Below, piece after piece: positions 37,094-47,027 of a stretch of 64,000 nt of DNA. Origin of the DNA: Kangiella sp. HZ709 (GTDB lineage Bacteria; Pseudomonadota; Gammaproteobacteria; Enterobacterales; Kangiellaceae). The notes beneath the pieces were generated by a model. That model searched no databases and was not told where the DNA came from. It was given only the letters and a program-made list of their open reading frames with translations. The translations under genes were made by a program, and so were the position numbers. The stretch is from positions 1,247,031 through 1,311,030 of the forward strand of contig NZ_WKJC01000001.1 of the NCBI RefSeq assembly GCF_009674675.1. Reading direction: 5' to 3'. Position 1 is the first letter of the stretch, and every line of letters starts with the position of its first letter.

Positions 37094-38407
37094 ATGAATA
37101 ATTTATCAGACAAGATTTTTTCGCAAGACCATGCGCGCCAGTTAGACTCTCAAGATCCTTTAAGTGAGATGCGCCAAGAATTTCATATTCCAAAACAAGC
37201 AAACGGCGATGATGAAATATATTTTTGTGGTAATTCGCTCGGCTTACAACCCAAGCGTACTCAAGAATACCTAAACTATGAGTTAAGCCAATGGAAAAAA
37301 CTAGGTGTTAAAGGCCATTTCTCAGGCGATTTTCCTTGGATGCCCTACCATGAATTTTTAGCCGAAGAATCCGCTAAATTAGTTGGAGCAAAAACATCCG
37401 AAGTAGTTTGCATGAACTCCTTAACAGCCAACTTGCACTTCATGATGGCAAGCTTCTATCAGCCTAATAAACTGCGCCATAAAATTCTTATCGAAGAACA
37501 TGCCTTCCCTTCCGATCATTATGCGGTCGAATCACAAATTCGTTTTCATGGCTTTGCTCCTAAAGAATCTATGTTACTGGCTAAACCTCGCGCAGGCGAA
37601 GAGACCTTAAGAACTGAAGATATACTGGCGTTAATTGAACAACAGGGTGATGAAATTGCTTTAATTATGCTACCAGGTGTTCAATATTACACTGGCCAGG
37701 TTTTAGATATGAAAAGCATCACTGCAGCAGGCCACGCAAAAGGCTGTCGTGTTGGCTTTGATTTAGCGCATGCTGCTGGCAACATCCCTATGGCGTTACA
37801 TGATTGGGATGTCGACTTCGCAGCTTGGTGCTCCTATAAATATTTAAATTCTGGTCCTGGCTCAGTTGCAGGCTGTTTTATTCATGAAAGACATCATAAA
37901 GCTGAACTCTATTTGAATAATGAGCTACCTCGTTTTGCCGGCTGGTGGGGGCATGATAAAGAATCACGCTTTAGAATGGAGAATAACTTTCTACCTATCG
38001 AGACCGCAGAATCTTGGCAACTATCCAATCCTCCGATACTATCTTTAGCCGCAATACGCGCTTCACTTGATACAGTAAAGCAAGCTGGTGGCATTGAGAT
38101 ATTACGCCAAAAATCGATCAAATTGACTCGGTATTTGCGTGAACTTCTCAATCAAGAATTGGGTAATGATATTACAATTCTTACACCTGAAGATATTCAT
38201 GCTTCAGGTGCTCAATTATCCATAGCGGTTGATTTGCATGGACTAGACAGCAAAACAGTTTTTGATCGCATTGAAGCGGCAGGCGTCACGTGTGATTTTC
38301 GTCACCCTAATGTTATTCGAGTGGCTCCCGTACCTCTTTATAATTCATTCGAAGACTGTTTCAAATTTACTTCTATACTTAAAAAAGCATTAGGGGTTAA
38401 TTTATGA
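37094..38407 (+). CDS. kynU: Kynureninase
   Basis: Kynureninase is a PLP enzyme that cleaves kynurenine or 3-hydroxykynurenine to (hydroxy)anthranilate and alanine. The 437-aa product has IYFCGNSLGLQPK, the FDLAHAAGN segment with the PLP-contacting aspartate, and the PLP lysine in AWCSYKYLNSGPGSVAG. The N-terminal DPLSEMRQEFHIP is also family-typical. It overlaps the start of the monooxygenase gene (ATGA), and 3-hydroxykynurenine is the likely main substrate here. Confidence 0.96.
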   Translation: MNNLSDKIFSQDHARQLDSQDPLSEMRQEFHIPKQANGDDEIYFCGNSLGLQPKRTQEYLNYELSQWKKLGVKGHFSGDFPWMPYHEFLAEESAKLVGAKTSEVVCMNSLTANLHFMMASFYQPNKLRHKILIEEHAFPSDHYAVESQIRFHGFAPKESMLLAKPRAGEETLRTEDILALIEQQGDEIALIMLPGVQYYTGQVLDMKSITAAGHAKGCRVGFDLAHAAGNIPMALHDWDVDFAAWCSYKYLNSGPGSVAGCFIHERHHKAELYLNNELPRFAGWWGHDKESRFRMENNFLPIETAESWQLSNPPILSLAAIRASLDTVKQAGGIEILRQKSIKLTRYLRELLNQELGNDITILTPEDIHASGAQLSIAVDLHGLDSKTVFDRIEAAGVTCDFRHPNVIRVAPVPLYNSFEDCFKFTSILKKALGVNL

Positions 38408-39780
38408 TAGAAGCGAAGTTTGAGCAACACATTACGATTATTGGTGCAGGCTTAGTTGGCTCTTTGATGGCAATTTATCTTGGGCAACGCGGTTACAAAG
38501 TCACTGTTTTTGAAAAACTTCCTGATATCCGTCAAGAAGCTATTCCAGCTGGCCGCTCAATTAATCTAGCATTAGCCAATCGCGGCATCCGCCCTTTGCA
38601 ACAAGTTGGTGTGATGGAGCAAGTGGAAAAGCTGCTTATACCAATGAAAGGCCGAATGCTGCATGATATTGAAGGTAATTTGCAGTTTCAATCTTATGGT
38701 CAAAAAGTTGAAGAAGTTATCTATTCTGTATCTAGGGCCGGACTAGTAAGCTTATTACGCGATCAAGCAGAAGCAACTGGAAAAGTCACTTTCAATTTCA
38801 AACATAAATTAGAAGCCATTGATTTTGATGCCAATACTATCGAAATTACTGACCTACCCAACCAGAACCACTTCACTCATAAGTTTGATGTTTTACTTGG
38901 CACCGATGGTGCAGGCTCAAAAGTTAGAAGACTAATGCAAGCCAATGGCATTGAAGGTTTTAGTTCGGAATTACTTGAGCATAACTATAAAGAACTGACT
39001 ATTCCTGCAAGTAAAACTGGTCAATATTTAATTGAGAAAGAAGCCTTGCATATTTGGCCGCGTGGTGGCTACATGTTAATTGCATTGCCAAATCCTGAGG
39101 GTGACTTTACACTGACCCTTTTTATGCCAAAAGATGGCAAAGATAGTTTTGCGCAGCTCGCCGATAAAACTGCGGTCGATGCTTTCTTTCAAAAGCACTT
39201 TAAAGATGCTTATGATCTTATTCCTAATTTAAGTGATGAGTTTTTTAATAATCCAACCGGAATTTTAGGCACAGTCCGTAGTGAAAATTGGCTGCATAAA
39301 AACGTTTTGCTATTTGGTGATGCGTCACATGCTATTGTCCCCTTTCATGGACAAGGTATGAATTGTGGTTTTGAAGATTGCGCTGAACTCAATACAATGC
39401 TTAATCGCTTTCAAGATGACTGGTCTCGTGCCATGCCAGAGTTTACACGTCGTAGAATAGACAATGCTAATGCCATAGCCGATATGGCACTGGATAATTA
39501 TATTGAAATGCGCGACTCGGTTCGTGATCCAAAATTTCATCTTAAAAAAGCCATTGCATTCGAGTTAGAAAATAAATATCCAAATAAATTTATCCCGCGC
39601 TACTCTATGGTCATGTTTCATCATATCCCTTATGCAATGGCGCAATCTCGTGGTGAAATTCAAGCTAACATTTTGCAACAATTAACCACTGACGTTGAAG
39701 ATATAGATGCAGTAAACTGGAAGCATGCCGATGTGTTAATTTCTGAACTAGCCACCATCCCAAGAGAATATTTACCATGA
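38404..39780 (+). CDS. kmo: Kynurenine 3-monooxygenase
   Basis: This FAD hydroxylase makes 3-hydroxykynurenine from kynurenine with NADPH and oxygen. The 458-aa protein has the GAGLVGS dinucleotide motif near residue 14, the GRSINLALANRG segment, the DG motif in LLGTDGAGSKVRR and GDASHAIVPFHGQGMNCGFEDC. Length equals the Pseudomonas enzyme. Overlaps of 4 bp on both sides show tight translational coupling with kynU and the next gene. Confidence 0.96.
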   Translation: MIEAKFEQHITIIGAGLVGSLMAIYLGQRGYKVTVFEKLPDIRQEAIPAGRSINLALANRGIRPLQQVGVMEQVEKLLIPMKGRMLHDIEGNLQFQSYGQKVEEVIYSVSRAGLVSLLRDQAEATGKVTFNFKHKLEAIDFDANTIEITDLPNQNHFTHKFDVLLGTDGAGSKVRRLMQANGIEGFSSELLEHNYKELTIPASKTGQYLIEKEALHIWPRGGYMLIALPNPEGDFTLTLFMPKDGKDSFAQLADKTAVDAFFQKHFKDAYDLIPNLSDEFFNNPTGILGTVRSENWLHKNVLLFGDASHAIVPFHGQGMNCGFEDCAELNTMLNRFQDDWSRAMPEFTRRRIDNANAIADMALDNYIEMRDSVRDPKFHLKKAIAFELENKYPNKFIPRYSMVMFHHIPYAMAQSRGEIQANILQQLTTDVEDIDAVNWKHADVLISELATIPREYLP

Positions 39781-43605: not shown

Positions 43606-45330
43606 TTAGTCGCTCGAGATTTCAACACAACAAACTTGATTCTTACCAGCAGCTTTTGCTTGATACATGGTTTTATCAGCATCGCCAATAACTTTGCTTA
43701 ACTCATAACCAGAGAGCCTAGTGGTGGTAATGCCAAAGCTAGCAGACAAAGGAAATTTATGACCAGAGTCTGAGGTATCGACAGCTTCGATAGCTTTACG
43801 ACACTTCTCTGCAATCTCTTTAGCTTTTTCCATATTGCAAGTCGGTAGCATCAAAGCAAACTCCTCACCACCTAAACGACCAGCAATATCATTTTGTCGC
43901 CAGCATGGTATACAAACGCTTACAGCCTTCTTTAAAACCCAGTCGCCAACTAAGTGCCCATAATTATCGTTGACCGATTTAAAGCCATCCATATCAAATA
44001 ACACAAAGGTGACTTCTTGATTGGTTTTTTTAGCATGCTCAAGGGTCTTACGGCACATGAAATAAAAATGTTGCCTTGAACTAACACCGGTTAATAAATC
44101 AGTTTCTGATTGGCGTTTTAATTTAATTTGATTACGTTTTACGCGATAAGTCCAGAAAGCTAATGACGTTAAAATGAAGATTAGCAAGATAACCATTAAA
44201 CGATTATTAGAAGCCTCTTCTTTGGATAAATCTTGTTCTAATTTTAAGACTTCATTTTGTTTATTAAGTAATTCGATCTCTCTTTGCTTCTCATTTGTCT
44301 GCTGCTTTACGAGTTCATGTGCCATTCGCTTTGATTGCTCGGTATCAGCTAAACTAGCAGACAATTTATAAAACTTTTCATGATAAAATAACGATTGGTC
44401 ATAAAGTTTTTTTTCACGAAATATTTTGTACAAAACATTATAAGAAGAAACCGCCCATTCAGACTGCTCAACTTGTAAGTTTATCGCCTTTTTGGCAAAT
44501 TTTTCTGCATTTTCTAACTCTTCGAGCTCCCAATAGCCTTCGGCCAGCCTCGAATAATAAGTTCCAATTAAATATTGGTATTCAGTACTCTCTACTTCTT
44601 GTAAGTTTTCTAACAACAGGTTTACAGCTTTTTTGGATTCGCCAAAATTAACATATTGAGTCGCTATAAAAGATAGCATCACATTTTTCGGAATCACTTC
44701 ATTGATGGAGCTGCACACTTTAATAGAATTCTTAACTCTTTCATCGGCAACATTTAAATTGCCTATTTTGAATTCTGCTTCGACTAAAATATTCTCAGCA
44801 AAGCAATAGGTCCGAGGATCAGTGGTATTATTTTGTATTTTCAGGCCATACTCTTTTGCTGATTGATTATCGCCAATTAGATTATAAATAATACCAGCAA
44901 TAACATAGCCTCTATTTCTTTCTTCTTGATTTTCTAGCATAGATTCAAGCTCTAAGCTTAAATTCAGCTGAGTGATAGCATCCAGGTGACTCCCTTTTGC
45001 TGCATACATGTTAGCTAAAGACATGCCTGCTTTATATTTAACTTCAGGATAATTAGATTCCTGTATTACAACCTTAAATGTTTCAATAGCATTTTCTGAA
45101 TGCCCTTTTAAAATTAGAGACCACACCAATAAATAATTGAAGTAGTCTCTTTCTTTTTCACTAAAATCTTGTTTATTTTTTTCCAGCGAATCCATTTGAT
45201 CAAGAAACTCACTAGGCTGAGATGTTTTTATCTTATCTGCAGCCTTGAGCACCTCTAGGAAGTCTTTTTCTGCAGCAACTACAGAAAAAGAACACCAGAT
45301 TAATAAAATAAGTAAGATTTTAATTTTCAA
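43606..45330 (-). CDS. Diguanylate cyclase with periplasmic TPR domain
   Basis: The 574-aa protein has a signal peptide (1-20) and a periplasmic tetratricopeptide-like solenoid (about 25-330). A coiled coil (335-375), a membrane segment (377-394) and a GGDEF domain follow. GGEEF at 487-491 and the RXXD inhibitory site (RQND, 478-481) are intact, so it should synthesise cyclic di-GMP. It begins 9 nt after the stop of the putative borosin precursor gene and probably shares its transcript. This links signalling to that peptide. The link could be regulatory or only incidental. Confidence 0.88.
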   Translation of the reverse strand: MKIKILLILLIWCSFSVVAAEKDFLEVLKAADKIKTSQPSEFLDQMDSLEKNKQDFSEKERDYFNYLLVWSLILKGHSENAIETFKVVIQESNYPEVKYKAGMSLANMYAAKGSHLDAITQLNLSLELESMLENQEERNRGYVIAGIIYNLIGDNQSAKEYGLKIQNNTTDPRTYCFAENILVEAEFKIGNLNVADERVKNSIKVCSSINEVIPKNVMLSFIATQYVNFGESKKAVNLLLENLQEVESTEYQYLIGTYYSRLAEGYWELEELENAEKFAKKAINLQVEQSEWAVSSYNVLYKIFREKKLYDQSLFYHEKFYKLSASLADTEQSKRMAHELVKQQTNEKQREIELLNKQNEVLKLEQDLSKEEASNNRLMVILLIFILTSLAFWTYRVKRNQIKLKRQSETDLLTGVSSRQHFYFMCRKTLEHAKKTNQEVTFVLFDMDGFKSVNDNYGHLVGDWVLKKAVSVCIPCWRQNDIAGRLGGEEFALMLPTCNMEKAKEIAEKCRKAIEAVDTSDSGHKFPLSASFGITTTRLSGYELSKVIGDADKTMYQAKAAGKNQVCCVEISSD

Positions 45331-45339
45331 GCTAATGAC

Positions 45340-45606
45340 CTAAGCTGCAATCTTACTTTCAGCTTCATCTCCGTCACTTTCATTACCTTCCTCGCTTTCT
45401 TCATCTTCAGCAGGGAACAGTAATGCCATTACATTTTCCGAAGATGCCAGCTTATCAAGATCTTGATAGCTATTTTCTAAAACCATTTGAATGGCTTCAG
45501 ATTGAAATCCTTTATCTTCTAATGCTTTTTGTAAATCTAGCTTTGGTAAATCTAAAAGCCTTGATTCAATACTCAACAATTCTAATAACTTAACTACATC
45601 TTTCAT
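45340..45606 (-). CDS. Putative split-borosin precursor peptide
   Basis: The 88-aa protein has a helical N-terminal region. The stretch from Leu25 to Leu53 (ALEDKGF, SEAIQMVL, QDLDKLASS) resembles the borosin-binding domain of the Shewanella precursor SonA as I recall it. A short hydrophobic segment follows (NVMALLFP, 58-65), the likely methylated core. After it comes a tail of about 20 residues made mainly of Glu, Asp, Ser and Gly, ending SKIAA. The start has a strong GAGGAG site 7 nt upstream, better than its neighbours, as expected for an abundant precursor. The methyltransferase gene lies 29 nt upstream. Function is inferred. Confidence 0.7.
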   Translation of the reverse strand: MKDVVKLLELLSIESRLLDLPKLDLQKALEDKGFQSEAIQMVLENSYQDLDKLASSENVMALLFPAEDEESEEGNESDGDEAESKIAA

Positions 45607-45635
45607 AACATCTCTCCTCTGTGTGTAAAATATAA

Positions 45636-46394
45636 TTATTTTCGTCTCTGCACAGCTTCTGCTGGCGGAACAACCAATGTATCTTCCATCGTTAAATCGA
45701 TCCGCATCATTTCTATTAAAGATACTTTTAAGGCTCTATAACTATCGGTTGGTCCTACGGCTGCTCGGTATATTGTGACTTCTTGTGTTGGCTCATAATA
45801 AGCACTAAGCACTTCAACAAAGTGCTTAAGGTTATTCTCATCCGTAGAAAATCTTTTTAGAGACAAGTCTCCCACTACACCTATCTGCCATACAATTAAA
45901 TAAGACGTTACATCTATAACTTTATTATAGAGTATCAGTTGTGTTGCTTCGTAATGCTGGCAACCATAAGTTCCGGGGTCAATACCTAGGTCAGCATAGA
46001 GGCAATCTTCAGCGGATATTCCTGGTTCCATATGAGCTGGATATCCTTCTTTTCTAGCTTGCTCTATCGCTTTATGAGGAGCCCATGCAAATACGCCTGG
46101 ATGGCCGTAAAAAGCACCGCATACACTTTTGCCTTTCCTAACCTCAGACAACATAGCTTCAACCATCTCTTTATAGGTGGTCAACCTAGATTTACCCTCT
46201 TTATAAAAAGGCTGCAAACTACGAACATCTTTATTCATTTCTTGAATCCAAAGTTCTACCAGCCCGGAAGAAACCCCCATAAATACTACGTCTGCATTTT
46301 CAACATAACTTCTTGATATTGGACTTATATGAGCACCTAACTTCATTCCTATGCCCACACACACTAAACTGCCACTTACCTTATCTGTTGTCAT
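45636..46394 (-). CDS. Borosin-type peptide backbone alpha-N-methyltransferase (SonM-like)
   Basis: The 252-aa protein has the tetrapyrrole methylase fold: GSLVCVGIGMKLG at the N-terminus, FYGHPGVFAWAPH (95-107) and MEPGISAEDCLYADLGIDPG (122-141). These match the SonM family of split borosin methyltransferases rather than the cobalamin or siroheme enzymes, which differ in the substrate loops. Arg70 and Tyr74 (RLTTY) keep the Arg-x3-Tyr pair known to be catalytic in borosin enzymes. It would transfer methyl groups from SAM to main-chain amides of the 88-aa protein encoded 29 nt downstream. No strong ribosome-binding site is visible. Confidence 0.85.
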   Translation of the reverse strand: MTTDKVSGSLVCVGIGMKLGAHISPISRSYVENADVVFMGVSSGLVELWIQEMNKDVRSLQPFYKEGKSRLTTYKEMVEAMLSEVRKGKSVCGAFYGHPGVFAWAPHKAIEQARKEGYPAHMEPGISAEDCLYADLGIDPGTYGCQHYEATQLILYNKVIDVTSYLIVWQIGVVGDLSLKRFSTDENNLKHFVEVLSAYYEPTQEVTIYRAAVGPTDSYRALKVSLIEMMRIDLTMEDTLVVPPAEAVQRRK

Positions 46395-46481
46395 CTATTT
46401 GTTTTTATTACAGAATAACATCAAAATTTACCATGGTTCCTTAGCTATTAAAAGAAATCATGCCTAAAACATTGATTACTC

Positions 46482-47027
46482 ATGTCATTTTTTTTTAAAA
46501 GTGCTTCTTTAAGTTTTCGGCAGCTTAAAAATTCCGATAAAGAACTGTATATATCCTTATATACGGATCCTATTGTTATGCAATACATTGCAGAACCCTT
46601 ATCAAAAACTACGGCTGCAAGGATGTTTGAAGCGCAACTAAAACCATGGGGCGTAAAATCAACCCATATGCTTAATTTAGTGATCACTGAAATATCCTCG
46701 GATTTGGATATTGGTGTTTGTGGAGTGGTAACAAGGAGCCTCCTGAGTAAACAGGCGGAAGTGGGAATGGTTTTTTTACCTGAATTTCATAGTAAGGGTT
46801 ACGGCACCGAAACATTAACTCGATTGAGTAAATACGCCTTTAAAGAGCTTGGTTATAACAAACTTTCAGGGCCGCCCTTTCCGAGCAATAAAGCTTCTAT
46901 CAAAATTATGCAAAAGTCGGGTTATAAGTTTGAAGCAACCCTGAGACAGAATCAGTTTTTAAATGGCAAATACCACGACACCCCTTTTTATACACTACTG
47001 AAAGACGAGTGTACTTATTTAGATTAA
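46482..47027 (+). CDS. GNAT-family (RimJ/RimL-like) acetyltransferase
   Basis: The 181-aa protein has the GNAT core, with acetyl-CoA motif A in VGMVFLPEFHSKGYGTETL and the SNKASIKIMQKSGYKFEA segment. It is close to acetyltransferases that act on ribosomal proteins or small molecules. It diverges from the borosin gene pair across an 87-nt gap and is convergent with pepB, overlapping its end by 4 bp. A role in the peptide pathway is possible but not shown. The first codons include a T9 run. Confidence 0.85.
   Translation: MSFFFKSASLSFRQLKNSDKELYISLYTDPIVMQYIAEPLSKTTAARMFEAQLKPWGVKSTHMLNLVITEISSDLDIGVCGVVTRSLLSKQAEVGMVFLPEFHSKGYGTETLTRLSKYAFKELGYNKLSGPPFPSNKASIKIMQKSGYKFEATLRQNQFLNGKYHDTPFYTLLKDECTYLD

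Follow-up and report, generated by a model that had tools for sequence, protein, structure and literature searches.

The window analyzed here, a stretch of 64,000 nucleotides from the 2.41-Mb genome of the marine bacterium Kangiella sp. HZ709, very probably carries a split-borosin cassette in which a methyltransferase (MT), a separate precursor, a GNAT acetyltransferase and a TPR-GGDEF sensor form one unit. This assignment is based on homology, the retention of catalytic residues in the MT, a precursor leader that resembles a borosin binding domain (BBD), and a conserved neighbourhood. The initial annotation had placed a split-borosin pair at 45340-46394; the pair itself stands, but that interval omits the GNAT and TPR-GGDEF genes, and the unit extends from 43606 to 47027. 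The MT-precursor pair is a new representative of the split borosins, an already known class.

The window encodes a borosin-type methyltransferase

The MT (252 aa) is encoded at 45636-46394 and the precursor (88 aa) at 45340-45606, both on the minus strand and both at positions that the ORF listing bears out. The motifs YGHPG, PGISAE and RLTTY, which had been claimed for the methylase, are all present, RLTTY including R70 and Y74, which correspond to R67 and Y71 of SonM. In a phmmer search of the PDB, the top matches were SonM entries (E 9.4e-65 and, for 7ltc, 9.5e-65), with the alignment reaching residue 248 of 252, and the fungal OphMA group followed (E 1.4e-46 to 3.7e-43). The likeness to SonM that the initial annotation had proposed is thereby upheld (47% identity over 242 columns of the pairwise alignment).

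Residues Y58/R67/Y71/Y93/F99/W166 of SonM, of which the roles of Y58, R67 and Y71 are taken from the available text of PMC8429565, correspond to Y64/R70/Y74/Y96/F102/W169 in the window MT, and the equivalents of all six are invariant across 21 sequences, the window MT included. In the pairwise alignment, the window MT shares SonM Q55, Y58, R67, Y71, Y93, F99, E146, W166, L176 and F179, whereas L34, R68 and Q178 are replaced; the last of these, a core contact in SonM, is R181 in the window protein, which counts against the borosin reading. As judged by these matches and residues, the 252-aa protein is predicted to be a borosin-type backbone alpha-N-methyltransferase.

The Pfam family of the window MT is TP_methylase (59.1 bits), and the protein also gives weak matches to the YabN (36.6 bits) and NCBIfam cobJ (22.3 bits) models, all of which would suit an ordinary tetrapyrrole/corrin or RsmI-type enzyme lying beside an unrelated small protein. 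We consider this explanation exceedingly improbable: the YabN and cobJ scores are far under their cut-offs of 525 and 246, the matches to SonM and OphMA are far better, and the borosin catalytic residues are kept. The PRK06136 model likewise scored 12.3 bits, against a cut-off of 198.

The initial annotation had allowed for a grouping of the methylase with CobA/CbiF; we found that corrin models fell far below their cut-offs, that SonM and OphMA matched at E 1e-43 or better, and that in the tree the window MT grouped with other split-borosin methyltransferases. In this tree of 91 rows, it lies within a 37-row clade (support 92/93), and those rows of the clade that were looked at are mostly accompanied by precursors with an acidic tail. 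SonM pairs with the MT of locus L048 (100/99) in a different clade. The genome's own RsmI-like protein, the sole non-borosin row of the tree, sits on a very long branch, very far from the window MT. One acid-tail member, L017, was placed outside the window clade, its position in the tree not being settled. A CobA, CobJ or RsmI identity for the window MT was dropped on the basis of the curated model scores and the tree.

The 88-aa protein is a predicted separate precursor with a SonA-like leader

The 88-aa protein comprises a leader, a hydrophobic segment that is the putative core, and an acidic tail. Its leader (residues 1-54; 45445-45606, minus strand) is a predicted five-helix BBD, and the precursor ATG is preceded, at a distance of 5 nt, by the ribosome-binding site AGGAGAG (45612-45618, minus strand), as read from the sequence. 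Together with the gap of 29 bp that separates the two genes, this agrees with the close pair spacing and strong ribosome-binding site of the small gene on which the initial annotation had relied.

The same annotation had described the leader as SonA-like, a claim that is supported by a family profile and by five predicted helices, although pairwise likeness is undetectable. Searched alone against the PDB, the 88-aa protein did not match SonA at E up to 10, and the matches obtained were S100-A9 and calgranulin entries with E 0.6 or worse. It had no match in Pfam, and its single NCBIfam match, RecX, was below threshold. When a profile of 46 precursor sequences, the window protein among them, was compared with the whole PDB, seven SonA sequences came first (E 1.7e-5 to 4.1e-5), the next match having an E-value of 0.31. 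None of the 46 family members matched an NCBIfam model, and their Pfam matches were three singletons.

We also used a precursor HMM built from 85 sequences of loci L101-L179, none of them titled Kangiella; the 85 had been selected by means of an earlier HMM, for which members of the window family may have been among the training sequences. With the 85-sequence HMM, the 88-aa protein scored 30.0 bits (6.5 bits for the highest-scoring of 200 shuffles), the leader alone 16.8 bits (highest-scoring shuffle, 10.3), and residues 7-53 of SonA 20.9 bits.

The AlphaFold2 model of the 88-aa protein, built with the 46-sequence family alignment (mean pLDDT 76.3), has helices at residues 2-13, 15-19, 22-31, 36-43 and 47-54, followed by a loose or disordered tail. 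According to the available text of PMC8429565, the BBD of SonA is likewise a five-helix bundle (residues 1-53). When this model was compared by Foldseek with a library of 350,542 structures, two SonA chains ranked first and second with weak E-values (1.0 and 2.2), and there were no matches below E 0.001. The window precursor has Ser12 where a leader glycine is near-invariant among relatives. On profile and model evidence, we take the 88-aa protein to be the putative separate precursor of the window MT, whose docking onto the leader (residues 1-54) would follow that of SonM on SonA.

Just before PAED lies a hydrophobic stretch, V59-F64 (45415-45432, minus strand), delimited from the pattern in relatives and SonA residue numbers; the window sequence reads V59-MALL-F64, then PAEDEE. 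In many relatives, though not in all, a hydrophobic segment precedes P-A/G-E/K-D/E, after which comes an acidic tail. The methylated residues of SonA are L63 and I65 (PMC8429565, available text). Since V59-F64 sits at the same residue numbers, methylation is expected there, and by analogy this stretch is most likely the N-methylation region of the window precursor. The MT would carry out SAM-dependent methylation of backbone amide nitrogens around V59-F64, and the acidic tail (PAEDEESEE...) would lie after the modified stretch. The precursors of L103, L110 and L118 appear to bear repeated core-like segments, which suggests multi-core precursors at these loci.

Organization of the cassette

The order of genes on the minus strand is MT, a 29-bp gap, precursor, a 9-bp gap, and a gene for a 574-aa protein, and this tight spacing suggests that the three form one operon. 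The 574-aa protein (43606-45330, minus strand; TTG start as called) is a putative membrane sensor with a signal-peptide-like N-terminus, TPR, a TM-like segment and GGDEF. Pfam detected GGDEF at residues 409-565 (136.7 bits) and TPR_12 at 27.5 bits, under the cut-off of 30.1; hydrophobic segments begin at residues 1 and 375, GGEEF is at 487, and an I-site is present. AlphaFold2 (mean pLDDT 90.5) predicted paired helices over residues 24-306. The Foldseek matches shown for the TPR-GGDEF model were GGDEF structures, uninformative on the TPR part. In its signal-peptide-like N-terminus, TPR, TM-like segment and GGDEF with I-site, the window sensor resembles TPR-containing membrane diguanylate cyclases. 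Two cysteines of the TPR part, C176 and C206, are invariant across 40 sensors and may form a disulfide or contact a ligand.

Divergent from the MT, and separated from it by 87 bp, is a gene for a 181-aa GNAT acetyltransferase (46482-47027, plus strand; Pfam Acetyltransf_3, 85.1 bits). The GNAT most likely acetylates the peptide, for tailoring or self-protection, and this step would be optional. No transporter or protease gene was seen inside the window cassette. Scans for promoters and terminators found 8 and 3, versus 12.9 and 2.1 expected, respectively. Elsewhere in the window, at 37094-39780, are genes that we take to be kynureninase-like and kynurenine 3-monooxygenase-like.

Between the same two flanking genes, for a peptidase and a penicillin-binding protein, the cassette is absent in seven of seven same-genus genomes: the two genes are spaced by roughly 0.8 kb, and no match to the MT, GNAT or sensor lies in that interval. 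This set leaves out the drafts G002 and G003, in which no acid-tail cassette was seen.

A second split-borosin system of the window genome, L095 (G000:C4:365000-379000), has its MT at G000:C4:371882-372601 and differs from the window in gene order: a SonA-like 76-aa precursor, a GGDEF sensor, then the MT. Its sensor aligns with the window sensor over residues 5-567, with a marginal Pfam TPR match. The window sensor has 14 matches in its own genome, itself included, and in three of these the alignment takes in the TPR part: the window sensor itself, the L095 sensor and one unlinked protein. The last of these (G000:C3:1509627-1511108; L190) is a third TPR-GGDEF-like protein with no borosin MT beside it, and no BBD match was found in its 4.5-kb locus.

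Neighbourhood of the methyltransferase among relatives

A scan of named genomes yielded at least 517 MT relatives, of which we took the best 80, a choice biased to the best matches. Two of these lacked an intact MT ORF, and in 75 of the other 78 the sequence continued for 2.2 kb or more beyond the MT. Among these 75 named loci with room, drawn from the best 80 of at least 517, a same-strand TPR-GGDEF gene was present within 3 kb after the MT in 74, a BBD precursor in 73, and both together in 72. The presence of a BBD precursor at 73 of the 75 further argues against an ordinary methylase with an unrelated small neighbour. A GNAT gene was found within 300 bp in 26 of the 78 named loci (best 80 of at least 517).

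Of the 25 MTs encoded by the window and loci L074-L094, a BBD precursor lies downstream of 22. Each of these 22 cassettes includes an adjacent GNAT and a downstream TPR-GGDEF gene, a count that is not independent, since the loci had been picked for acid-tail precursors and their GNATs themselves served to build the GNAT model. The GNAT gene is on the same strand in 19 of the 22, and on the opposite strand in the window and two others. At L034 (G048:C166), which has an acid-tail precursor and falls outside the 22 cassettes, its contig stopping 514 bp before the MT, a HisKA/HATPase histidine kinase with marginal TPR matches stands in place of GGDEF. Judging from its domains, L034 appears to be an output swap within the window's own branch.

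MT matches were present in 41 of 61 relative genomes, from which 74 distinct MTs were taken. Ten of these had no same-strand neighbour of at least 300 aa within 1.2 kb downstream or 0.3 kb upstream, some of them being at contig ends. The other MTs had 75 such neighbour proteins, 67 of which were scanned; those left out were four upstream products and four repeats of a downstream protein type. At E up to 0.01, although often under curated cut-offs, the 67 neighbours matched TPR_12 (53), GGDEF (33), HATPase_c (11) and HisKA (10). Each of the 33 GGEEF neighbours has a TM-like segment as well as an I-site, and an N-terminal segment above threshold is present in 30 of them. The remaining neighbours are TPR with a kinase, or TPR alone. 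L096 and L098, which have SonA-like precursors, encode a tandem array of two to four TPR proteins, each about 355 aa long and lacking an output domain.

A search of the order with SonM gave matches in 72 of 295 genomes, from which 35 loci were selected by choice; one of them, L220, lies on a contig equal in length to that of the named locus L131. A match to the TPR-sensor HMM was found near the MT in 30 of these 35, with GGDEF in 23 of the 30; BBD matches were found in 26 of the 35, and GNAT within 300 bp in 11 of the 35. TPR-sensor matches were absent at L223, L229, L231, L235 and L240, of which L235 and L240 have just 1.8 and 2.1 kb after the MT. At L210, an MT 93% identical to SonM is accompanied by a SonA-like 71-aa precursor and by a TPR-GGDEF gene 255 bp after the MT. 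Tandem TPR-GGDEF genes lie near the MT at L104, L108, L131, L136, L222 and L227, as if the receptor had been duplicated. L229 (G300:C82), in the same order, encodes a 638-aa ORF with a borosin-type MT match, possibly a fused borosin.

These data bear on whether the pair is a working borosin system to which the TPR-GGDEF and GNAT genes are mere neighbours, kept close by shared regulation or by synteny and taking no part in producing or sensing the peptide. It is in keeping with such an explanation that the link of both genes to the peptide rests on gene context, that the window genome also encodes a TPR-GGDEF-like protein apart from borosin genes, that the GNAT is adjacent at just about a third of the named loci, and that five order-level loci, including the two with little sequence after the MT, have no TPR-sensor match. 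Against it, the TPR sensor stays by the MT across families and gene orders, whether downstream or upstream; it also accompanies distant borosin lineages with a differing output domain, and is present at the locus most similar to the son genes of Shewanella. Moreover, the genome's best match to the window sensor, besides itself, adjoins the second borosin MT. We regard mere neighbourhood as unlikely.

Sequence divergence of the cassette proteins

Over 94 loci, the median pairwise identity was 0.589 for the MT, 0.481 for GGDEF, 0.265 for TPR and 0.264 for the precursor, and 0.225 for the GNAT in the subset of these loci that have one. The 11 Kangiella loci gave medians of 0.510 (MT), 0.619 (GGDEF), 0.262 (TPR) and 0.284 (precursor). 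The sensor and precursor thus appear to be the more variable parts, as expected of a ligand and its receptor. However, precursor distances correlated with TPR distances at 0.54, no better than with those of GGDEF (0.56) or the MT (0.59), so that the divergence of sensor and precursor is no evidence of co-evolution; this lack of excess correlation also suits the explanation that the sensor is a mere neighbour.

The low identities of TPR and precursor relative to the MT would also suit varied outside ligands. The TPR-GGDEF protein, which from its sequence has an apparently periplasmic TPR part and an active-looking GGDEF with I-site, could sense an outside cue and control borosin production through c-di-GMP, the peptide being a natural product that acts on other cells and not a ligand of the sensor. 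We hold this to be somewhat unlikely, although it deserves more weight than mere neighbourhood; the position of the precursor directly before the sensor, and the existence of TPR-only sensors, fit contact between peptide and TPR at least as well.

Discussion

The closest characterized relative of the window system is found in SonM-SonA, the type IV split borosin of Shewanella oneidensis MR-1, which, as described in the available text of PMC8429565, has a separate MT with the same catalytic residues and a separate, small precursor with a five-helix leader and a C-terminal hydrophobic core. The window architecture fits type IV as described there. Unlike SonA, the precursor of the window carries PAED followed by a long acidic tail, and its leader is too diverged for pairwise detection; unlike SonM-SonA, the window system has a GNAT gene alongside and an MT in a separate clade. 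The fused fungal borosins OphMA, dbOphMA and MroMA belong to the same MT family as the window protein, which differs from them in lacking a fused C-terminal clasp or core, its chain ending at 252 aa and the precursor being a separate gene.

Split borosin types V-X (Cho et al. and Imani et al., as cited in the available text of PMC11285071 and PMC11395268) share with the window a bacterial MT and precursor that are separately encoded, and the window system may already belong to one of them. Our literature search, with later split-borosin mining papers outside its scope, found no paper joining borosins with c-di-GMP and none joining borosins with Kangiella.

The gene-neighbourhood association hints that split borosins may be ligands or partners of periplasmic TPR receptors. 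For the window, we infer that the product or a related cue is most likely perceived by the TPR domain in the periplasm, and that c-di-GMP is set via GGDEF; a peptide made in the cytoplasm would have to lose its leader and gain access to the periplasm. More broadly, we put forward as a tentative proposal, favoured over the two explanations weighed above and still short of probable, that bacterial split borosins could be a signalling module: a backbone-N-methylated ribosomal peptide would be read by a dedicated periplasmic TPR receptor whose output domain (c-di-GMP synthase, histidine kinase, or none in the case of TPR alone) is swapped by lineage, the peptide and the sensor part being among the fastest-changing components. 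Within this family of receptor-coupled peptides, the window cassette, with its acid-tail precursor and linked GNAT, would represent one branch.

According to the available text of the 2021 SonM paper (PMC8429565), no bacterial split borosin had yet been tied to a final natural product. Most of the loci that we examined, among them the one nearest to SonM, have a secreted or membrane TPR sensor, and the role of bacterial split borosins is therefore directly testable. Backbone N-methylation alters peptide stability and membrane permeability, and for this reason a natural receptor for N-methylated peptides would be useful. If true, the reading of these peptides by a TPR receptor would give backbone-methylated peptides a role in signalling.
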